64,000 nt of DNA from NCBI GenBank assembly GCA_900321035.1, contig ONUH01000002.1, positions 62,001 to 126,000 of the forward strand, in the 5' to 3' direction. Made by a program: the position numbers and the translations under genes. The notes under the pieces are model-generated. The model made no database searches and was not told the origin of the DNA. It was given only the letters and a program-made list of their open reading frames with translations. Of this stretch, positions 3,107 to 19,817 are shown piece by piece; positions within the stretch are counted from its first letter, which is position 1, and the number at the start of each line of letters is the position of its first letter. Source of the DNA: an uncultured Selenomonadales bacterium. Its GTDB lineage: Bacteria > Bacillota > Negativicutes > Selenomonadales > Selenomonadaceae.

Positions 3107-3116
3107 ATGTATACAT
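3107..3116. promoter_or_regulatory. Palindrome ATGTATACAT upstream of the glutamate synthase promoter
   Basis: Perfect 10 bp palindrome (12 bp with flanking A/T) ending 12 bp before the -35 box. The identical palindrome lies 10 bp before the -35 of the amt promoter (17667-17676), suggesting a shared activator or repressor site. Binding protein unknown. Confidence 0.45.
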
Positions 3117-3128
3117 TCCTTTTCCGCA

Positions 3129-3157
3129 TGGACAAAGAAAAAAACGCGTGCTATACT
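3129..3157 (+). promoter_or_regulatory. Promoter of the glutamate synthase operon
   Basis: TGGACA (3129-3134), 17 bp, TATACT (3152-3157). The same hexamers and spacing occur upstream of sdaAB. The transcript would begin near 3163, directly before the attenuator hairpin. Confidence 0.7.
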
Positions 3158-3177
3158 GCCCATGAAAAAAAAATCAA

Positions 3178-3240
3178 ACGGCAATGGAGCCTTGCGGCGC
3201 CGGAGCGATTTTCGTTCCGGCGCTGCGGGGCTTTTTGTGT
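3178..3240 (+). promoter_or_regulatory. ANTAR-type attenuator: hexaloop hairpin overlapping an intrinsic terminator
   Basis: Hairpin GGC-[AATGGA]-GCC at 3180-3191 has a six-base loop with A at position 1 and G at position 4, the signature bound by ANTAR domains. Its 3' arm (GCC, 3189-3191) is also the first part of the long 5' arm of a terminator (3189-3207 with 3213-3231), followed by CTTTTTG. The two structures exclude each other, so binding to the hairpin would allow read-through into the glutamate synthase genes. The stem is short (three pairs, extendable by CAA/TTG across a bulge) and I see no upstream first hairpin, unlike the classical dual-hairpin targets. Confidence 0.6.
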
Positions 3241-3246
3241 TTTTTG

Positions 3247-3375
3247 ATCTCAGTCAGGATTGTATTCCTACTGAGATTTATGGGACGGCATTTGCGCCAA
3301 AGGCGCAAATGCAGCCTGCAAAGCAGGCGTATCTCAGTTCAAAATTCTATTTCACTTAAAATTTTGGCCTGAGAT
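3247..3375. repeat. Palindromic intergenic element with ATCTCAG/CTGAGAT ends
   Basis: Begins ATCTCAG and ends CTGAGAT. Inside are three nested hairpins: ATCTCAGT...ACTGAGAT (3247-3277), GCATTTGCGCC/GGCGCAAATGC (about 3288-3312) and GCCTGC/GCAGGC just after. It sits between the attenuator and the first glutamate synthase gene, within the untranslated leader. Looks like a REP/MITE-type insertion. Confidence 0.5.
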
Positions 3376-3397
3376 TGAATCAAAGGGGGAATGAATG

Positions 3398-4498
3398 ATG
3401 TGCCGGATCGGGGCTATCAAGAGCAAGAATCCCGTGCAGCCGTCCATGGCGCTCCGTCTCATGCTGCCGCAGCAGGAGGGTCATGACAATTCGGGATTCG
3501 CAATGGTGATGCAGGATCTTTACGGGGTATTCGGGCTATACAAGGACAAGCCGCTACTTTCCATGGCCTGCACGCAGCAGGGCGGACATCTTGTCGAAGA
3601 ATATATGGACGCCCACCGCTTCGTGAAGATGTCGGAGTGGCTGCCCGTGCCGGACAAGCGTAAGGGGCTGAACATCCAGACGATGCCCTATTATATCTTC
3701 CGTACCTACGATTACCCGGAATACGTGACGGATCCGGACGAGCGGGAGGCGCTGCTCCTCGATACGCGGCTCGCGCTGCGCCAGATGCTTACGGAGACTG
3801 GACAGGGCTATATCTATTCGTTCTGGCCGGACGTGCTGACGCTGAAAGAGGTCGGCGACCCCATGGACATAGCCACCTATTTCCACCTTTGGGACGACAA
3901 CGGCTGCCTCGTCGCGAAGAATATCATCGTGCAGAGCCGCCAGAATACGAATTACGAAATCATCCGCTACGCGGCGCACCCGTTCTTCCTGCAAGGCTAC
4001 ACGCTCTGCGCCAACGGCGAGAACACCTTCTACACGAAGAACAAAGAATTCCAGAGTTCTCTCTTCCGCGGCTATATCGGCTTCGAGTCGGACTCGCAGA
4101 CATTTCTTTACACGCTCCATTACGTGCTGCATGAGCTGAAATGGCCGATTCCATATTACAAGCACGTGATCACGCCGCTACCTTTCTCGGAGATCGAGCA
4201 TCGCGAGGACAAAGACGTATTGCTCTCCATCCGTCAATCGCTGGCGCATCTGGAAATCAACGGGCCGAATACGATCATCGCAGGGCTGCCCGACGGGCGC
4301 ATGATGACCTGCTGCGACTCGAAGAAGCTGCGCCCGGTAGTGGTAGGCGGCGACGAAAACACCGTCGCGATCGCGTCCGAGGTATGCGGCATCAACGAAA
4401 TACTGCCGGACCGCGACACGTCGAAGGATATCTACCCGGATGAGCGGGAGATCGTTGTGATCGACAACGACCTGGAGGTGAAGAGATGGAAACAGTAA
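3398..4498 (+). CDS. Glutamate synthase, class-II glutamine amidotransferase subunit
   Basis: 366 aa; corresponds to the N-terminal amidotransferase domain of GltB encoded as a separate protein, as in archaeal-type glutamate synthases. It releases ammonia from glutamine for the synthase subunit downstream. Two ATGs are adjacent (3395 and 3398). The second gives Met-Cys-Arg-Ile-Gly, so removal of Met exposes the Cys nucleophile at the N-terminus, as this family requires; GGGGGA lies a suitable distance upstream of it. The HDNSGFA segment matches the class-II fold. Overlaps the next gene by 13 bp. Confidence 0.85.
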   Translation: MCRIGAIKSKNPVQPSMALRLMLPQQEGHDNSGFAMVMQDLYGVFGLYKDKPLLSMACTQQGGHLVEEYMDAHRFVKMSEWLPVPDKRKGLNIQTMPYYIFRTYDYPEYVTDPDEREALLLDTRLALRQMLTETGQGYIYSFWPDVLTLKEVGDPMDIATYFHLWDDNGCLVAKNIIVQSRQNTNYEIIRYAAHPFFLQGYTLCANGENTFYTKNKEFQSSLFRGYIGFESDSQTFLYTLHYVLHELKWPIPYYKHVITPLPFSEIEHREDKDVLLSIRQSLAHLEINGPNTIIAGLPDGRMMTCCDSKKLRPVVVGGDENTVAIASEVCGINEILPDRDTSKDIYPDEREIVVIDNDLEVKRWKQ

Positions 4499-6117
4499 AG
4501 GTGCAAGACGTCGCGGTGGACGATCTGCCGTGGACAATCGAATACCATTCAGAGCGCTGCACGCTTTGCGGAAGCTGTCTCGCAAGCTGCACCTTCGGCG
4601 CGATCAAGCCCGTGGTGCGGCGTCAGTCCGTGACGGTATCCGAGGGCAACCAACCGAAGCCGGCGCACCGCCAGATCGCGAGAACGATCATCGAGCAAGT
4701 GGCGAGCTTTGCCAACGCCTGCCGGGGCTGCGGCATGTGCGAGCGCGTCTGCCCGAACCATGCCATTCGCCCCGTGCGGAACCCGGACAACCGCCGCACG
4801 CTCCTTTCCCGCGACAGCGGCCCCATCAAGCGCGGCGGACGCACGAACCTGAACGCACAGCGCACGCTAGACAAGATCATCGTCGGGCGCATTTCCCAGA
4901 TGACCGACCCGTCGCTGGACGCCCAGCGTCATACCTTCGATATGCGCGCGCCGCTGGGACGTGTGCTTTCGGCGCGGGAGCTGCCTTTCTCGATGACGGA
5001 CGGGCATATCACGATGACGCATAAAGCGCCGCCCGTGCGCTGGATCTATCCGCTGATTTTCTCCGATATGTCCATCGGCGCGCTCTCGACCCGCGCATGG
5101 GAAGCCGTGGCGATGGCGACGGCTTACCTCAACGAGCGCTGCAACATTCCAATCCGCATGAGCTCCGGCGAGGGCGGTATGCCCGTGAAGCTCCTGGAAT
5201 CGGAGCACCTGAAATATTTCATCATCCAGATCGCCTCCGGCCATTTCGGCTGGAACCGTATCGTGAAAGCGCTGCCGCGCATGAAGGTCGACCCCGCCGC
5301 TATATTGATCAAGATCGGTCAGGGCGCAAAACCGGGCGACGGCGGGCTTCTGCAGGCGGAGAAAGTCGCGCCCCACGTGCAGGCCATCCGCGGCGTGCCG
5401 AAGGCGACGCTCTCCTCGCCGCCGAATCATCAGGGTCTTTATTCCATCGAGGAATCCGTGCAGAAGATGCACCTTTCGCTGAACGCGGCCTTCGGTTTCC
5501 GCGTGCCGGTAGCCATCAAGTGCGCGGCATCCTCGACCTCCGTTTCCGTTTACAACAATCTGCTCCGCGATCCGTACAAGATCTGCGGCGGCCTCTTCCT
5601 CGACGGCATCCAGGGCGGCACGGGCGCGGCCAACGAAGTGTCCCTCGACCATACGGGCCATCCGATCGTGTCGAAGATTCGCGACTGCTATCTCGCGGCT
5701 GTGCGGCAGGGACTGCAGGGACAGATTCCGCTGTACGGCGGCGGCGGCATCGGTCTGACGGGAAACGCGGCCGCCGACGCCTTCAAGATGATCTGCCTCG
5801 GCGCCAACGGCGTTTTCTGCGGCAAGATCTTGATCCAGCTCTTAGGCTGCGTCGGCAACGAGCACGGGCGCTGCAATTCCTGCAATACGGGCAAGTGCCC
5901 GACGGGCATCTGCACGCAGGATCCGCGCCTCGTCAAGCGACTCGACGTGGACCGCGGCGCGCAGAAGATCGTCGATTACGTGCTGGCCTTCGACTCTGAG
6001 ATGAAAAAGCTGATGGCGCCTATCGGCAACTCGTCGCTGCCCGTGGGGCGGAGCGACGCGCTGGTCTCGACGGACAAGGCGATTGCGGACAAGCTGGGAA
6101 TACAGTACGTATGTTGA
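4486..6117 (+). CDS. Glutamate synthase, FMN/FeS synthase subunit with N-terminal ferredoxin domain
   Basis: 543 aa. Residues about 25-95 carry two 4Fe-4S motifs (CTLCGSCLASC and CRGCGMCERVC). The rest is the GltB central/FMN synthase domain, with GEGGMP, KIGQGAKPGDGG and DGIQGGTGAA, and near residue 455 the cysteines for a 3Fe-4S cluster (CNSCNTGKCPTGICTQDP). It converts 2-oxoglutarate plus ammonia to glutamate. As in archaeal-type enzymes, the amidotransferase and GXGXG parts are on neighbouring genes. Translationally coupled to the upstream subunit. Confidence 0.9.
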   Translation: METVKVQDVAVDDLPWTIEYHSERCTLCGSCLASCTFGAIKPVVRRQSVTVSEGNQPKPAHRQIARTIIEQVASFANACRGCGMCERVCPNHAIRPVRNPDNRRTLLSRDSGPIKRGGRTNLNAQRTLDKIIVGRISQMTDPSLDAQRHTFDMRAPLGRVLSARELPFSMTDGHITMTHKAPPVRWIYPLIFSDMSIGALSTRAWEAVAMATAYLNERCNIPIRMSSGEGGMPVKLLESEHLKYFIIQIASGHFGWNRIVKALPRMKVDPAAILIKIGQGAKPGDGGLLQAEKVAPHVQAIRGVPKATLSSPPNHQGLYSIEESVQKMHLSLNAAFGFRVPVAIKCAASSTSVSVYNNLLRDPYKICGGLFLDGIQGGTGAANEVSLDHTGHPIVSKIRDCYLAAVRQGLQGQIPLYGGGGIGLTGNAAADAFKMICLGANGVFCGKILIQLLGCVGNEHGRCNSCNTGKCPTGICTQDPRLVKRLDVDRGAQKIVDYVLAFDSEMKKLMAPIGNSSLPVGRSDALVSTDKAIADKLGIQYVC

Positions 6118-6196: not shown

Positions 6197-6243
6197 TTGT
6201 TTCACTTCTTTGCTTGTTAGAATATCGACAGGAGGATACCACC

Positions 6244-8589
6244 ATGCTTAAAATAGACACCCTTACCGGCCATGAGCGCATGTCCACCCAAGACCTTTTG
6301 CTCGCGGTGGAAAAGGCGGTGCAGGAGGGCGAAACGGAGTTTGAGATTATCGCCTCGGGTCAGCACGACATCGGCGGGCCGCTATGGCACCCCGAAGGGA
6401 AAAAGCTCGTCTTCCATGTGACGAACCCCGGCCAGCGCGTCGGCTCCATGTGCCTCGACAACACGGAGATCGTCGTGGACGGGCCGGCCTCCGCCGACGT
6501 GGGCTGGCTGAACGTCGGCGGTCTTATCACCGTGCGCGGCGACGCGGGCGACACGGCGGGCCACTGCTCGGCAGGCGGCCGGATTTATATCGGCGGGCGC
6601 GGCGGTACGCGCACCGGTTCTCTGATGAAGCACGATCCGCTCTACGATGAGCCGGAGCTCTGGGTGCTCAAGAACGTCGGCAGCTTCTCTTTCGAGTTCA
6701 TGGGCGGCGGACGCGCGGTAGTCTGCGGCTGGGACAGCGAGGGCTTTGATTCGGTGCTCGGCGAGCGCCCCTGCGTCGGCATGGTGGGCGGCGTCGTCTA
6801 TGTGCGCGGCCCGATTTCCGACGATTATCCGGAAGACATCCGCTGCCTCGCCCTGGATAAAGACGACGTCGCTTTCCTTGAAAACGGCATGAAGAATTTC
6901 CTCGCCGCCATTGAAAAGCCGGAGCTCCTGGCGGAGCTTTCCGACTGGAGCGTCTGGAAGAAACTGCGCCCGCTGACCTTCGAGGAAAAGCAGCCGAAGC
7001 CGCTGCCGGACCTGGCGGCCTACCGGATGCAGGACTGGATCCGAGGCGGCTTGTTCAGCGACGTGGCGATGGACGACTTCACCGTGCTGAACACGGTGAA
7101 TCGCGGCCTTTACCGCCTGCGCGTGCCGTCCTGGGACAATGCGAAATACGCCGCGCCCTGTGAATTCTCCTGTCCGACGGGTATCCCCACCCAGCGCCGC
7201 CTTGCGCTCCTGCGGGACGGAAAGGTGGAGGAAGCGCTGCGCCTCGTGCTGGAATATACGCCGTTCCCCGGCTCCGTCTGCGGAACGCTTTGCCCGAATC
7301 CCTGCATGGAGGGCTGCACCCGCAGCACCATCGACGAAGCAATCCAGATCGGCGCGCTGGGCTTCAAGTCCGCCTATACAAACGTCGACCCGCCGGCGGA
7401 GCGCACAGGAAAATCCGTCGCCATTATCGGCGGCGGCGTTGCGGGACTTTCCGCAGCTTGGCAGCTTGCCCGGCGCGGCCATACGGTCACGGTTTATGAC
7501 GACGCGGCGGAAATCGGCGGCAAGCTGGCGCAGGTCATTCCCCGCGCACGAATGCCCCACCAGCTTTTGGAATTGGAACTGAAGCGCATCGAGGGCGTCG
7601 GCGTGAAGTTCGTCACCTCCTGCCGCGTGGACCGCGATAAATTCGACCAGCTCCGCAAAGAAAACGACGCCGTGCTGGTGGCTACGGGCGGACACAAGCC
7701 GCGCTTCTTCCCATGGGAAGGCACGGAGCTTTTGACCATGGGCCTCGACTATCTGAAAGCCATCAATCGCGGCGAGAAGCCGCCCACGGGCAAGACCGTC
7801 CTCGTCATCGGCGGCGGCAATTCCGGCATGGACGTGGCCACCAGCGCCTACGAGCAAGGAGCGGAAAACGTCATCGTCGTGGACGTGATGAAACCCGCCG
7901 CGTTCCAGAAGGAAATCGACCGCCTCGAAGCCTTCGGCGGCAAAATCGTCTGGCCCTTCGTGACGAAGAAAATCGCGACGGAAGGCGTCTATTCCGACGA
8001 CGGCCGCTTCATCGCTGCGGATCAGGTCATCGTCTCCATCGGCGAGGCGCCGATTCTCGACTACCTGCCCGACGATCCTTCGATTCAAAAATTCCGGGGC
8101 GACTGGCTCGTGCCTTCGCTGGAAAAGATGATCCTGCCCGGCGTCTTCGCGGCGGGCGACGTAACGAAGCCGGGACGGCTGACCGACGCCATCGGCGACG
8201 CGCGGCGCACTGCCGTCGCCATCGACCAGTACCTGCGCGGCGAAAAGATCACGCCCGTCCTCACGAAGGAACGGATTCCCGCCGAGCGTCTCTCGAAGGC
8301 CTACTTCGAGAAGTGCCACCACTGCGACCTGCCGGATGCAGGTGAGGAACACACGCGCTGCGTCTCCTGCGGCACCTGCCGCGACTGCCGCATGTGCGTC
8401 AATTCCTGCCCGGAGAAGGCAATCACGCGTATCGACGACGAAAACGGCGGCTGGGAATACGTCTCCGACCCGACGAAGTGCATCGGCTGCGGCATCTGCG
8501 CGGGCGTCTGCCCCTGCGGCATCTGGAGCCTGAAAGACAACCCCGAGCCGATCGAGATGTACCGCACCTATGAGAAGAGCGGCGCGTGA
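6244..8589 (+). CDS. Fused GXGXG (GltB domain 3) - GltD reductase - ferredoxin protein
   Basis: 781 aa with three modules. Residues 1 to about 240 form the GXGXG beta-helix of glutamate synthase (GGRIYIGGRGG, DEPELWVLKN). Residues about 300-690 are the GltD-type reductase: FeS cysteines (CEFSCPTGI, CGTLCPNPCMEGC), FAD motif IIGGGVAGLSAA near 394, and NADPH motif VIGGGNSGMD near 520. Residues about 690-780 hold further Cys clusters ending with a 2x4Fe-4S ferredoxin (CRMCVNSCPEKAI, CIGCGICAGVCPCG). Start 6244 follows AGGAGG with 8 bp spacing. It probably carries electrons from NAD(P)H or ferredoxin to the synthase subunit. The fusion of GltB-3 to GltD is the unusual part. Confidence 0.88.
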   Translation: MLKIDTLTGHERMSTQDLLLAVEKAVQEGETEFEIIASGQHDIGGPLWHPEGKKLVFHVTNPGQRVGSMCLDNTEIVVDGPASADVGWLNVGGLITVRGDAGDTAGHCSAGGRIYIGGRGGTRTGSLMKHDPLYDEPELWVLKNVGSFSFEFMGGGRAVVCGWDSEGFDSVLGERPCVGMVGGVVYVRGPISDDYPEDIRCLALDKDDVAFLENGMKNFLAAIEKPELLAELSDWSVWKKLRPLTFEEKQPKPLPDLAAYRMQDWIRGGLFSDVAMDDFTVLNTVNRGLYRLRVPSWDNAKYAAPCEFSCPTGIPTQRRLALLRDGKVEEALRLVLEYTPFPGSVCGTLCPNPCMEGCTRSTIDEAIQIGALGFKSAYTNVDPPAERTGKSVAIIGGGVAGLSAAWQLARRGHTVTVYDDAAEIGGKLAQVIPRARMPHQLLELELKRIEGVGVKFVTSCRVDRDKFDQLRKENDAVLVATGGHKPRFFPWEGTELLTMGLDYLKAINRGEKPPTGKTVLVIGGGNSGMDVATSAYEQGAENVIVVDVMKPAAFQKEIDRLEAFGGKIVWPFVTKKIATEGVYSDDGRFIAADQVIVSIGEAPILDYLPDDPSIQKFRGDWLVPSLEKMILPGVFAAGDVTKPGRLTDAIGDARRTAVAIDQYLRGEKITPVLTKERIPAERLSKAYFEKCHHCDLPDAGEEHTRCVSCGTCRDCRMCVNSCPEKAITRIDDENGGWEYVSDPTKCIGCGICAGVCPCGIWSLKDNPEPIEMYRTYEKSGA

Positions 8590-8692
8590 AGCGTGGCGTT
8601 CTGATAAAAATATTGTATTTTTTAAGAAGCAAGGTAGAGCATAAACGAATTTTGTGTTATAAAAGTATCGTAAGAGAAAGGGGGCTGGAGAC

Positions 8693-10123
8693 GTGAACGA
8701 CATACGCGCGCTTTGCCGCGCCCATACGGACATTTCGGGACGGCAGGCGGAGCTTTTGAAAAATATCGGCGAAGGTCTTCCCTTCATCGCAGACCTTGCG
8801 CAGGCTCAAGCGAGCCTCTACGCTCCAACCCGGGACGGCAATCATCTGCTTGTCTTGGCGCAGACCCGCTCCCATACCATGGTGCAGCCCCTGCGGTTGG
8901 CCTCCGTCGGCTCCTTCGTGCCGAGGGAAACGGAGCCGCTGATCGTCCAGACCCTGACCGACGGACAGCCGCTGGTGGGCCTTCGCGGGGACCTCATCAA
9001 CGCCGACGCCCTCGAAATGCACACCTACGGCATCCACGACGGCAACGACGCCATCGCCGTCGTCAGCCTTGAAGTTCCCGCCGGACAGCTGCGGGATCGC
9101 GGCAGCCAATGCCTGGTGGAAACGGCGCGCATGATCTTGCAGAACTCCCGGAACGCGCTCGACCCGAACGCCTATCGGAGCATCTCGCCGCGGGACGGCA
9201 TCCTGATCGCCGACGCCTACGACCGGATCATTTATGCCAACGCCGCCGCTCAGCACATTTTCCGCGTGCTCGGCGTCGGCTCGCTCCTCGGCGTACGGCT
9301 CGACGCGCCGGAACTCATCCGCCATATCACGCGGGAAACGATTACGCCGGAGCGCCCGACGGAAAAGGAAATCGAGGCCGGCGGCCTCACGCTGCTCCGA
9401 CGCGACCTTCCGATTCTCGCGGGCGGAAAGCTTTTGCGCCGCGTAGTCGTGGTGGAGGACGTCACCGCCCTCCGGCAAAAGGAAAAAGAGCTGGCCCTGC
9501 AGGAAACCGTAATCCGGGAAATCCATCACCGGGTCAAGAACAATTTGCAGACCATCGCGAGCCTGCTCCGCTTGCAGGCCCGCCGTGCGCCGGAAACGGC
9601 GGTGAAAGACGCCTTGGGGGAAAGCGTGAACCGCATACAGGGCATCGCCGCGCTCCATCGGCTGCTCTCCCGCGAAGGCACCCGCCCCGTCTGTCTCCAC
9701 GCGCTGGCCGAAGAAATCCTCGACCTGCTCTCGGCCTCGGCCCTCGCGCCGGATTTTCGGCTGGAACGGCAGTTCACCGGCGACGACCTCCCGATTCCTC
9801 AAAGCCGCTGCACCAACCTTGCGCTGGTGCTCAACGAGCTTTTGCTGAACGCCATCGGGCACGCGTTCCCGGAACGCAGCGCCGGAAAGATCTGCCTTGA
9901 CGTCCGCACAGAGGAAGAGAATATCATCCTCACCCTCCGCGACGACGGCGTCGGCCTGCCGGAGGACTTCCGGCCGGAGACGTCGAAATCCCTCGGACTT
10001 CATATTGTACGGACGATCGTAGCGGACGATCTTGGCGGCCAAATCTCCTTTGAAAACGACAACGGCACGCGGACGACAATCACGCTGCCGCGAAACAATC
10101 TGATTGGGGAGGCGGAAGCATGA
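8693..10123 (+). CDS. Sensor histidine kinase (H_kinase_N / PAS-like / HisKA_2 / HATPase)
   Basis: 476 aa, no membrane segment, so a cytoplasmic sensor. The N-terminal 150 residues match the histidine kinase N-terminal domain found in EutW-like kinases; residues about 160-260 look PAS-like. The phosphoacceptor region EIHHRVKNNLQTIASLL (His278/279) is of HisKA_2 type, and the C-terminus has the ATPase boxes NELLLNAIGHAF, DDGVGLP and SLGLHIV. Starts with GTG after GGAG and shares an ATGA overlap with the ANTAR regulator, its obvious partner. The signal is unknown; a nitrogen or amino-acid cue is inferred from the likely targets. Confidence 0.87.
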   Translation: MNDIRALCRAHTDISGRQAELLKNIGEGLPFIADLAQAQASLYAPTRDGNHLLVLAQTRSHTMVQPLRLASVGSFVPRETEPLIVQTLTDGQPLVGLRGDLINADALEMHTYGIHDGNDAIAVVSLEVPAGQLRDRGSQCLVETARMILQNSRNALDPNAYRSISPRDGILIADAYDRIIYANAAAQHIFRVLGVGSLLGVRLDAPELIRHITRETITPERPTEKEIEAGGLTLLRRDLPILAGGKLLRRVVVVEDVTALRQKEKELALQETVIREIHHRVKNNLQTIASLLRLQARRAPETAVKDALGESVNRIQGIAALHRLLSREGTRPVCLHALAEEILDLLSASALAPDFRLERQFTGDDLPIPQSRCTNLALVLNELLLNAIGHAFPERSAGKICLDVRTEEENIILTLRDDGVGLPEDFRPETSKSLGLHIVRTIVADDLGGQISFENDNGTRTTITLPRNNLIGEAEA

Positions 10124-10704
10124 AGCCTTTGAAAATCGTGATTGCCGACGACGAATCGGTCATCCGCATGGATTTGAAGGAAATCTTGCAGGAGGCGGGC
10201 CACGAGGTCGTCGGCGAGACGGCGAACGGCCGCCGCGCTGTGGCCATCGTGCGGGAAACAAGCCCCGACCTCGTCATCATGGATATCAAGATGCCGGACA
10301 TGGACGGCGTCGAGGCGGCGCGATTGATCGCGGCGGACCACTTGGCGCCGGTGCTGCTCTTGACGGCTTTCGACGACGCTGAGCTGATTGAGCGGGCGAA
10401 AGACGCCGGGGTACTCGCCTACCTCGTCAAGCCCGTCGAGGAAAAGAATCTCTTCCCGGCGATGGAGATCGCCCTTTCCCGTTGGCAGGAAATGCAGTCG
10501 CTGGAGGAAGAGCTTTTCGCCATGCGGGATTCGTTGGAAACGCGAAAACTCCTGGACCGCGCGAAAGGAATCCTGATGCAGGCGCATAATATCAGCGAGG
10601 CCGAAGCGTACCGGCGCATGCAGCGCTACAGCATGGAAAAACGGCTCTCGCTCAAAGAAGTGGCCTCCGCCGTAGTAAAAGCAGGAAGCAAAAGAAAGAA
10701 ATAG
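10120..10704 (+). CDS. Response regulator with ANTAR RNA-binding output domain
   Basis: 194 aa. Receiver domain with D10/D11, phosphoacceptor D55 (VIMDIKMP), T82 and K104 all present; a coiled linker; then an ANTAR three-helix domain at about 133-190 (RAKGILMQAHNISEAEAYRRMQRYSMEKRLSLKEVA). ANTAR regulators (EutV, NasR, AmiR) bind hairpins with A1/G4 hexaloops and prevent intrinsic termination. Three such leaders occur in this window (about 3180, 15986 and 17768). Coupled to the kinase by ATGA; a terminator follows. Confidence 0.93.
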   Translation: MKPLKIVIADDESVIRMDLKEILQEAGHEVVGETANGRRAVAIVRETSPDLVIMDIKMPDMDGVEAARLIAADHLAPVLLLTAFDDAELIERAKDAGVLAYLVKPVEEKNLFPAMEIALSRWQEMQSLEEELFAMRDSLETRKLLDRAKGILMQAHNISEAEAYRRMQRYSMEKRLSLKEVASAVVKAGSKRKK

Positions 10705-15939: not shown

Positions 15940-15968
15940 TGGACAACCCATCAGCCATGTGCTATACT
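15940..15968 (+). promoter_or_regulatory. Promoter of sdaAB-sdaAA
   Basis: TGGACA (15940-15945), 17 bp, TATACT (15963-15968), the same elements as the glutamate synthase promoter. Between this and the divergent promoter at 15756-15785 I see only A/T-rich DNA. Confidence 0.7.
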
Positions 15969-15983
15969 TTCGATATTCAAATA

Positions 15984-16042
15984 ACGGCAACGAAGCCTTG
16001 ACGCATCGCAACCATTCCGGTTCGGCGCGTCAAGGCTTTTTT
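15984..16042 (+). promoter_or_regulatory. ANTAR-type attenuator upstream of sdaAB
   Basis: Hairpin GGC-[AACGAA]-GCC (15986-15997) with A1 and G4 in the hexaloop. Its 3' arm overlaps the 5' arm AGCCTTGACGC (15994-16004) of a terminator whose other arm, GCGTCAAGGCT (16027-16037), runs into six Ts. The core AACGGCAAYGRAGCCTTG is shared with the glutamate synthase leader, so both are likely read by one factor. Confidence 0.6.
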
Positions 16043-16067
16043 GTATAGCGATAAAGGAGCGTTGACT

Positions 16068-17666: not shown

Positions 17667-17676
17667 ATGTATACAT
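17667..17676. promoter_or_regulatory. Palindrome ATGTATACAT upstream of the amt promoter
   Basis: Identical to the palindrome at 3107-3116 and placed the same way, 10 bp before the -35 box. A candidate operator for a nitrogen regulator acting on initiation, separate from the attenuator. Confidence 0.45.
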
Positions 17677-17686
17677 CCCAACCCCC

Positions 17687-17715
17687 TTGACAATCTCCCA
17701 AAAACGCGTTATCTT
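17687..17715 (+). promoter_or_regulatory. Promoter of amt
   Basis: Consensus TTGACA (17687-17692), 17 bp, TATCTT (17710-17715). Confidence 0.7.
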
Positions 17716-17730
17716 TAGCACATGATTTTT

Positions 17731-17820
17731 CCGTCGCCCGGGCGGCGGGGAATGACACAGGGCAAAACGGACACAGGCGTCCGGCGTGAAGGAGACTTCT
17801 GCCGGGCGCTTTTCGTTTTT
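17731..17820 (+). promoter_or_regulatory. ANTAR-type dual-hairpin attenuator upstream of amt
   Basis: Second hairpin CGGAC-[ACAGGC]-GTCCG (17768-17783) has a five-pair stem and a hexaloop with A1 and G4. Its 3' arm lies inside the terminator arm GCGTCCGGC (17777-17785), which pairs with GCCGGGCGC (17801-17809) before TTTTCGTTTTT. A possible first hairpin, CCGTCG-[CCCGGG]-CGGCGG (17731-17748), has G4 but C rather than A at loop position 1. The best of the three ANTAR candidates here. Confidence 0.68.
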
Positions 17821-18038: not shown

Positions 18039-19817
18039 ATGAAACGGAATTTGCGATGTACGGCTTTCGCGTCGACGGTCGGCGCTTGGCTTTTGGGGCT
18101 TCCGGGGATTGCGTTGGCGGCGGATAACGCGCCTGCGCGGTACGCGGCGGCGGATACGATCTGGGTGCTTTTAGGCGCGGCTTTGGTGTTCTTCATGCAG
18201 CCGGGCTTCGCGATGGTGGAGACAGGCCTGACCCGCGCGAAAAACGCGGGCAATATCGTCATGAAGAACGTGATGGACCTCTGCCTCGGCACGATCGCGT
18301 TCTGGGTGGTCGGCTTCGGGCTGATGTTCGGCACGGACGTCGGCGGATTTATCGGAATACCGGATTTTTTCATTTCGGGTTGGGACGTCGGCAGCGACGC
18401 GGGTTACCCGAAAGCGGCATTTATTATTTTCCAGACGGTGTTCTGCGCGACGTCGGCGACGATCGTTTCCGGCGCGATGGCGGAGCGCACGAAGTTCTCG
18501 ACTTACTGCGTTTACAGCCTCGCCATCAGCCTCTTGATTTACCCGGTGTCCGGTCACTGGATCTGGGGCGGCGGCTGGCTCTCGGAGCTGGGCTTCCATG
18601 ACTTCGCAGGCTCGACGGCGGTGCACATGGTCGGTGGCGTCTGCGCGCTAATCGGAGCGAAAATGCTCGGCGCTCGTATCGGTAAATACGACAAGGACGG
18701 CACGGTGAACGCGATTCCCGGCCACAGCCTGACGCTGGCGGCCCTCGGCGTGTTCATCCTCTGGTTCGCATGGTTCGGCTTCAACGGTTGCTCGACGGTC
18801 TCGATGACAGGCGACGAAACGCTGGAGACGGCAAGCCTGATTTTCGTCACCACCAACATGGCGACGGCGGCGGCGACCACGACGACCATGCTGCTGACCT
18901 GGCTTCGCTATGGCAAGCCGGACGTCTCGATGACGCTGAACGGCTCACTGGCGGGCCTCGTGGCAATCACGGCGGGCTGCGACGTGGTCAGCGTCGCAGG
19001 CTCCTTCGCCATCGGCGTAATCGCTGGCGCCGTGGTCGTCTTCGCAGTGGAGTTCATCGACCAGAAGCTCAAAATCGACGACCCGGTGGGCGCGTCTGCA
19101 GTGCACGGCGTATGCGGCGCGCTGGGAACCATCCTGACGGGACTGTTCGCAGTCAAGGATGGACTTCTCTACACGGGCAAAACGGATTTCTTCTTCGTTC
19201 AGGTGCTCGGCGTCGTGAGCGTCGTGATATTCGTTTCCGTTATGATAACAATCGTTTTCTCTGTGCTCAAAGCGACGATGGGTCTTCGCGTGACGGCGAA
19301 GGAAGAAATCATCGGCCTCGACTACGAGGAGCATGGTCTCGCCTCGGCCTACGCCGACTTCATGCCGACACCTGAAACGCCGGGTACGACTGCAGCGCCT
19401 GCGCCTGTCGGGCAGGCAGCGCCGCCCGCACCCGTTGCCATCCGCACGTCGGACGGCCGCGCACTGACCCGCGTTTCCATCGTCACCTCACGGGAACGCT
19501 TCGACGTACTCAAGGCGGAGCTCGAAAAGCTCAACATCACGGGCATGACGGTCACGCAGGTGCTCGGTTACGGCCTGCAGAAGGGCCATTCGATGTACCG
19601 CGGCGCGCACGTCGCCTCGCGGCTGCTGCCGAAGCTCCAAGTCGACCTCGTGGTGTCGGCCATTCCGCCGCGCGATATCATCGAAGCTGCGAAGCGCGCC
19701 CTCTATACGGGCCACTACGGCGACGGCAAGATTTTCGTCTCCACGGTGGACAACGTCATCAAGATCCGCACGGGCGAAGAAGGCTTCGACGCGCTGCAGG
19801 ATAAAGAAATCGCATAA
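18039..19817 (+). CDS. Ammonium transporter with C-terminal PII (GlnB/GlnK) domain
   Basis: 592 aa. Residues 1 to about 25 are a signal peptide (GIALAA). AmtB channel follows to about 440 with family motifs (FMQPGFAMVETGL, FAGSTAVHMVGGV, GALGTILTG). After a Pro/Ala linker, residues about 475-592 form a complete PII domain: T-loop YGLQKGHSMYRGA and B-loop TGHYGDGKIFVS. PII normally binds ATP/ADP and 2-oxoglutarate and plugs Amt in trans; here it is covalently attached, giving built-in gating. Start 18039 follows GAAGGAAGGGTG. Controlled by the attenuator 17731-17820. Confidence 0.93.
   Translation: MKRNLRCTAFASTVGAWLLGLPGIALAADNAPARYAAADTIWVLLGAALVFFMQPGFAMVETGLTRAKNAGNIVMKNVMDLCLGTIAFWVVGFGLMFGTDVGGFIGIPDFFISGWDVGSDAGYPKAAFIIFQTVFCATSATIVSGAMAERTKFSTYCVYSLAISLLIYPVSGHWIWGGGWLSELGFHDFAGSTAVHMVGGVCALIGAKMLGARIGKYDKDGTVNAIPGHSLTLAALGVFILWFAWFGFNGCSTVSMTGDETLETASLIFVTTNMATAAATTTTMLLTWLRYGKPDVSMTLNGSLAGLVAITAGCDVVSVAGSFAIGVIAGAVVVFAVEFIDQKLKIDDPVGASAVHGVCGALGTILTGLFAVKDGLLYTGKTDFFFVQVLGVVSVVIFVSVMITIVFSVLKATMGLRVTAKEEIIGLDYEEHGLASAYADFMPTPETPGTTAAPAPVGQAAPPAPVAIRTSDGRALTRVSIVTSRERFDVLKAELEKLNITGMTVTQVLGYGLQKGHSMYRGAHVASRLLPKLQVDLVVSAIPPRDIIEAAKRALYTGHYGDGKIFVSTVDNVIKIRTGEEGFDALQDKEIA

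Follow-up and report, generated by a model that had tools for sequence, protein, structure and literature searches.

A probable single-hairpin ANTAR-controlled transcription attenuator in the leader of a glutamate synthase operon

Introduction

In the leader RNAs on which ANTAR-domain response regulators such as EutV of Enterococcus faecalis act, the accepted model holds that a first hexaloop hairpin (P1) recruits the ANTAR dimer and a second (P2) blocks the terminator. In the Enterococcus eutP leader, induction is lost or much reduced when P1 or the linker is mutated (PMC3369931), and loss of the second hexaloop is as damaging; by that precedent, one hairpin alone would not be expected to be enough. 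In addition, a linker longer by 20 nt abolishes antitermination in vitro, and one ANTAR dimer binds one hexaloop, with P1 and P2 bound alike (PMC8934654). The same study redefined the minimal ANTAR binding motif as one hexaloop and predicted single-hexaloop sites.

Dual-hairpin ANTAR elements have been predicted before glutamate synthase and other nitrogen genes in Desulfotomaculum reducens and D. acetoxidans (PMC3369931). Other RNAs are also described at these genes. Subtype 2a of the ykkC class (ppGpp) is known at glutamate synthases (PMC5912903), and the gltD (SRC-18-1) riboswitch candidate of Selenomonadales and Veillonellales, as its description in PMC8632094 has it, always lies upstream of gltD and contains a hairpin that occludes the ribosome binding site. 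Here, we analyzed the leader of a glutamate synthase operon within the window (the whole stretch of 64,000 nucleotides under study), which a sequence-only reading had taken for an ANTAR-type attenuator with one hairpin.

Results

The gltB leader carries a predicted promoter, a small hairpin, and an intrinsic terminator in close succession (Table 1). The promoter boxes (3129-3134 and 3152-3157) score 10/12, with 0.3 such sites expected in the region, and by usual promoter spacing transcription would start at about 3163-3166, 14 to 17 nt 5' of the hairpin. As the sequence-only reading had described, a three-pair stem of GGC (3180-3182) and GCC (3189-3191) closes the loop AATGGA (3183-3188), which has the A1 and G4 of ANTAR targets. 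The 3' arm is held in common with a strong terminator, also as described: the terminator (3188-3232, 20 pairs, then the T tract) starts at the hairpin's GCC (3189-3191), an overlap typical of ANTAR targets, so that the two structures are mutually exclusive, and it ends 160 nt upstream of the first gene (3395). From the -10 box, the layout reads TATACT-22 nt-GGC AATGGA GCC-TTGCGGCGCCGGAGCG ATTTT CGTTCCGGCGCTGCGGGGC-TTTTT. The isolated small hairpin folds with -4.2 kcal/mol and the terminator with about -43 kcal/mol (z of -7.9), suggesting that the small hairpin would win only if held by something. An Rfam covariance search of the leader returned no family at gathering score (best subthreshold E of 0.13 or worse, a chance level) and no ANTAR dual-hairpin family, and neither the ykkC class (guanidine-I, ppGpp) nor any other Rfam riboswitch matched the gltB leader at that score.

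Table 1. Coordinates of the leader elements, operon genes, and further element copies in the window
Feature	Position	Strand	Basis
Predicted sigma-70 promoter, TGGACA/17 nt/TATACT, TG 5' of the -10 box	3129..3157	+	Same layout before the hairpin in leaders of the genus
Putative P2-like antiterminator hairpin GGC-AATGGA-GCC; hexaloop with A1 and G4; closing pair C-G	3180..3191	+	Sequence, folding, conservation in orthologous leaders
Predicted intrinsic terminator and T tract; 5' arm opens with the hairpin's GCC	3188..3236	+	Folding; compensatory changes in relatives
First structural gene of the operon, class-II amidotransferase-like, N-terminal MC	3395..4498	+	Sequence reading and neighbors
Glutamate synthase central/FMN domain protein with 4Fe-4S domains	4486..6117	+	PF01645
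Fusion of GXGXG domain and GltD-like oxidoreductase	6214..8589	+	Domain matches
Sensor kinase GAF_PdtaS/PAS/HisKA_2, EutW/PdtaS type	8693..10123	+	Domain matches
Response regulator with ANTAR domain, EutV/PdtaR type	10120..10704	+	Domain matches, alignment to 6wsh
Second copy: promoter TGGACA/17/TATACT, hairpin GGC-AACGAA-GCC (15986-15997), overlapping terminator to 16043	15940..16043	+	Lies before L-serine ammonia-lyase sdaAB
Probable third copy, different stem: TTGACA/17/TATCTT, hairpin CGGAC-ACAGGC-GTCCG (17768-17783), overlapping terminator to 17813	17687..17813	+	By eye, folding

The operon itself encodes a candidate regulator for this element. Its first structural gene has no Pfam or NCBIfam match; downstream of the remaining glutamate synthase genes lie a sensor kinase and a response regulator, whose receiver (PF00072, 96 bits) and ANTAR (PF03861, 73 bits against a cutoff of 27.3) domains score above the Pfam cutoffs. 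This ANTAR domain is the only one found in the genome assembly, which is 89.6% complete. We aligned the regulator to EutV (PDB 6wsh, the chain numbering of which is native plus two) with the residue numbering of PMC8934654. Among the five EutV residues reported to touch or sense RNA (R142, K143, K147, Y164, and M172; PMC8934654), four are identical and the fifth, K147, is replaced by Arg. The gap before the kinase gene (8589-8693) holds no such element; in six relatives, the kinase and ANTAR genes form a separate transcription unit with the same element.

In the relatives' leaders, GGC-A-A-N-G-N-N-GCC lies over a terminator in 10/10 gltB leaders examined from the genus and its sister genus, and one genome of another genus has the element before amtB; many gltB leaders elsewhere in the family are without it. 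Across 17 aligned leaders, A2 and G4 were present in all rows and A1 in 16/17, and 10 of the 19 terminator pairs had changed on both sides, with 96.5% of cells paired, a level of pairing exceeding all 500 shuffles and all slid versions. The sequence-only reading had asked whether related leaders keep the terminator while losing the A-x-x-G-x-x loop: the loop stays, and it is the terminator that changes, with 10 double-sided compensations. Together with an ANTAR regulator encoded in the glutamate synthase operon itself, this conserved loop supports the proposed ANTAR assignment, and the comparison supports the overlap geometry of EutV/NasR antitermination targets, here with one hairpin only.

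Two variations on the arrangement were observed. In five gltB leaders (L066, L069, L072, L056, and L060), the hexaloop hairpin abuts the terminator with no clear overlap, and the mechanism there may be steric rather than competitive. In five other leaders (L155, L211, L189, L225, and L231), loop position 1 is U or G and G4 is kept (TATGGC, TATGAA, GATGAT, GATGAA, and GACGTT), in agreement with structural work in which A1 makes no specific protein contact (PMC8934654).

We built a covariance model (R1) on the 17 aligned leaders; it holds no gene information and knows only GGC stems. Within the window, R1 detected a second copy at 15983-16044 (E of 2.6e-6; 17 nt from the -10 box to the hairpin), followed by the genes for L-serine ammonia-lyase beta and then alpha (TIGR00719, TIGR00718). 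The probable third copy lies before the gene for a fusion of an ammonium transporter with PII, with its predicted start at 18039, and a like arrangement occurs in one relative (L010). Elsewhere in the same genome, matches precede a D-glutamate-cyclase-like gene (PF14336; G000:C11:58979-59039) and glnA (G000:C19:33871-33932). In relatives, they precede glnA, amtB, sdaAB, and kinase-ANTAR genes, as well as genes for a sodium:dicarboxylate-family (SDF) symporter, NMT1-like binding proteins, and an AraC-type regulator; matches also occur at a eut-type (PdtaS-type) kinase and an amino-acid permease beside a second ANTAR gene. Since R1 contains no gene information, the functional agreement of its targets is independent support, and by this comparison the element before gltB, sdaAB, glnA, amtB, and others marks a nitrogen-assimilation regulon. 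Cross-tabulating R1 matches against ANTAR presence gave a weak association, because R1 knows only GGC stems; this table was replaced by the glnA leader test described below.

The absence of the usual first hairpin, already noted from the sequence alone, proved to be the rule in relatives and not a local quirk. No A-x-x-G hexaloop hairpin occurs within 60 nt 5' of the gltB hairpin, and no two hairpins of at least three pairs each, with six-base loops and a short linker, occur in this leader or, as a rule, in those of relatives. There is no room for a first hairpin, since the promoter ends 22 nt upstream. We applied one P1 scan to three sets of sequences. At eut loci (Enterococcus, Paenibacillus, Clostridium, and others), 16/25 P2-like elements had an A-x-x-G hexaloop within 60 nt upstream, and P1-P2 linkers were mostly 2 to 12 nt; the corresponding counts were 4/41 for R1 matches, most of them overlapping promoter sequence, and 1/58 for glnA leaders. 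Tandem A-x-x-G hexaloops before a T tract occurred at 6.6 per 100 kb in eut loci (control loop, 0.2) and at 0.4 per 100 kb in the relatives' loci examined (control loop, 0.2). The eut locus of Veillonella magna, which has a close EutV relative, contains the tandem pair, suggesting that the single form is tied to the ammonium regulon and not to every ANTAR protein of the class.

These counts bear on the alternative that survives best, namely, that the element is a conventional dual-hairpin target whose first hairpin was missed, whether because transcription starts farther upstream, because P1 is degenerate, or because a second hexaloop lies elsewhere in the leader. Two hexaloops are indeed present in the antitermination targets studied by experiment and described in PMC3369931 and PMC8934654, and leaders of the sister genus (L036, L121) have, 5' of the gltB hairpin, one AGCGTT hexaloop that might serve as a P1. 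Nevertheless, the empty 60 nt at gltB, the scarcity of P1 candidates at R1 matches and glnA leaders relative to eut elements, and -10 boxes that end 10 to 37 nt 5' of the hairpin make a missed P1 quite unlikely.

To score the element independently of its loop sequence, we scanned glnA leaders (90 collected, 85 of which could be oriented) for any hairpin with a 3' arm that is also able to pair with the bases preceding a T tract. Six-base loops stood out: such hairpins occurred in 39 leaders, against 8, 6, 7, and 14 leaders for loop sizes of 4, 5, 7, and 8 bases, respectively. Among these 39, G4 was present in 36, A1 and A2 in 31 each, and the closing C-G pair in 37. When G4 and the closing C-G were required, the element was found in 56/75 leaders from ANTAR-bearing and 3/10 from ANTAR-negative genomes (Fisher P = 0.008, uncorrected for relatedness, as are all counts given here; "ANTAR-bearing" denotes all genomes off the no-match list and includes the fragmentary genus members G001, G002, and G003, in which no ANTAR was found). 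The reversed-leader control gave 6/85. Some leaders of other families that have the motif were missed by the scan, for instance those with GAGTC-AANGNN-GACTC stems read by eye; across the set, the stem shifts from NGGC/GCCN to GAGTC/GACTC, and the loop and closing pair do not change. In a set of 91 distinct hairpins, 65 stem cells were doubly changed (shuffled mean, 27) and the closing pair was C-G in 90; G4 was in part a criterion for including rows, so the loop counts of this set carry no evidential weight. Judged from the comparison of leaders, the small hairpin is not a chance feature, since it is kept in every orthologous leader examined from the genus and sister genus and six-base loops stand out in scans blind to sequence.

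In two single-contig genomes with no ANTAR domain found (G060 and G039), the glnA leader (L249 and L250, respectively) keeps GGC-AGCGTT-GCC and the terminator. Such cases would be expected if another protein bound the hairpin, whether an unknown regulator or CsrA, which recognizes GGA in a loop, as is present in AATGGA. However, it is A1, G4, and the closing C-G that are conserved and not GGA (AATGAA, AAAGAA, AACGAA, and AGTGAA are common), and the hairpin overlies a terminator and is some 200 nt distant from the gene, whereas CsrA typically acts at ribosome binding sites; we regard this reading as more improbable still. Least probable is a plain, unregulated terminator with the small hairpin as a by-product of its GCC arm: the terminator is far stabler (-43 versus -4 kcal/mol), but its sequence diverges among leaders through compensated changes and the hexaloop does not, and the element precedes genes related in function, in terminator contexts that are unrelated to one another.

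Several further features were seen in these leaders. Between the terminator and the first gene, a 149-nt element with four hairpins (3242-3390) is single copy in the genome, recurs with base changes in G003 (L033), and is absent from the leaders compared from other species of the genus. The palindrome ATGTATACAT lies just upstream of the gltB and amt promoters (3107-3116 and 17667-17676; 4 strand matches, 0.05 expected). Similar TGTATACA repeats precede many gltB, glnA, and kinase promoters in relatives, suggesting that these genes may also be targets of a DNA-binding regulator. In other families' gltB leaders (L100 to L120), all three tested contained a ykkC-class RNA (RF00442, 49 to 59 bits, below gathering score) and further ones look ykkC-like by eye, which suggests that control of glutamate synthase has been swapped within the class. 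In those leaders, AGGAGTGTGCCT was at one stage taken for an ANTAR P1 and was dropped as part of this RNA (gathering score, 63). A broad pattern, AAAGCCN{20,50}GGCNNNNNNGCC, was also discarded as uninformative, being equally frequent in its own control. Finally, hairpin-less gltB leaders (L062, L064, L067, L073, L074, L080, and others) share a conserved stretch, TTACGTAAC...ACAAATGTGT, after the -10 box, which, going by the description in PMC8632094, may be the gltD riboswitch candidate; L046, L056, and L060 have a seemingly related stretch followed by an ANTAR hexaloop.

Discussion

We consider it very likely that the element is a single-hairpin ANTAR-controlled transcription attenuator of the glutamate synthase operon. 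In the default state, the leader would fold into the terminator as it emerges, and RNA polymerase would stop before the glutamate synthase genes. The operon-encoded kinase would activate the ANTAR response regulator, presumably by phosphorylation, and the ANTAR dimer would then bind the RNA and hold the GGC-AATGGA-GCC hairpin, keeping GCC from the terminator until polymerase clears the T tract. The effect would thus be positive, with read-through transcribing the whole operon, including the kinase and ANTAR genes, which, if cotranscribed with glt, would feed back on themselves. The kinase may sense nitrogen shortage; the target genes would be consistent with low ammonium or glutamine as the signal. 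Counting against this explanation are the two ANTAR-less genomes that keep the glnA hairpin, the gltB leaders of the family in which the element is lacking or does not overlap the terminator, and an A1 that is sometimes G or U.

More broadly, it seems probable that across this bacterial class, which we take to be the Negativicutes, one ANTAR hexaloop about 10 to 30 nt from the promoter suffices for antitermination of ammonium-assimilation genes, P1 being replaced by promoter proximity or longer terminators. If confirmed, this would mean that a whole class can dispense with P1, which is essential in Enterococcus eutP. A large natural set without P1 makes the role of P1 directly testable and offers short, simple templates for antitermination in vitro. 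Two-hairpin covariance searches would overlook the nitrogen regulon of these bacteria, and the leader suggests a simple search rule: hexaloop, closing C-G, and terminator overlap. A search of the open-licence PMC literature turned up no account of ANTAR attenuators with a single hexaloop in these bacteria.

Compared with the eut targets of E. faecalis EutV, the element has the same A1/G4 hexaloop, the same closing C-G pair, and the same overlap of the P2 3' arm with an intrinsic terminator, and the proteins are likewise alike in the PdtaS/EutW-type kinase, the RR-ANTAR regulator, and the conserved RNA-binding residues (PMC3369931, PMC8934654). It differs in having one hairpin in place of P1 and P2, a promoter only 10 to 37 nt upstream, and targets that are mainly ammonium assimilation genes and not ethanolamine genes. 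By sequence, it would behave like an EutV target, yet it falls outside the dual-hairpin definition. The Desulfotomaculum elements resemble it in their targets (glutamate synthase, glutamine synthetase, and ammonium transport); they were found with a two-hairpin model, however, which a one-hairpin element would not match. The gltD (SRC-18-1) candidate is at the same gene family in the same orders (PMC8632094), but the element here, set against that description, has a terminator and precedes many genes. The single-hexaloop sites of PMC8934654 were proposed for situations in which a transcribing polymerase sets no time limit (sequestration), whereas those described here are on terminators. Nevertheless, this natural single-hexaloop set fits the binding of one dimer to one hexaloop, and it qualifies the requirement for P1 and the linker.
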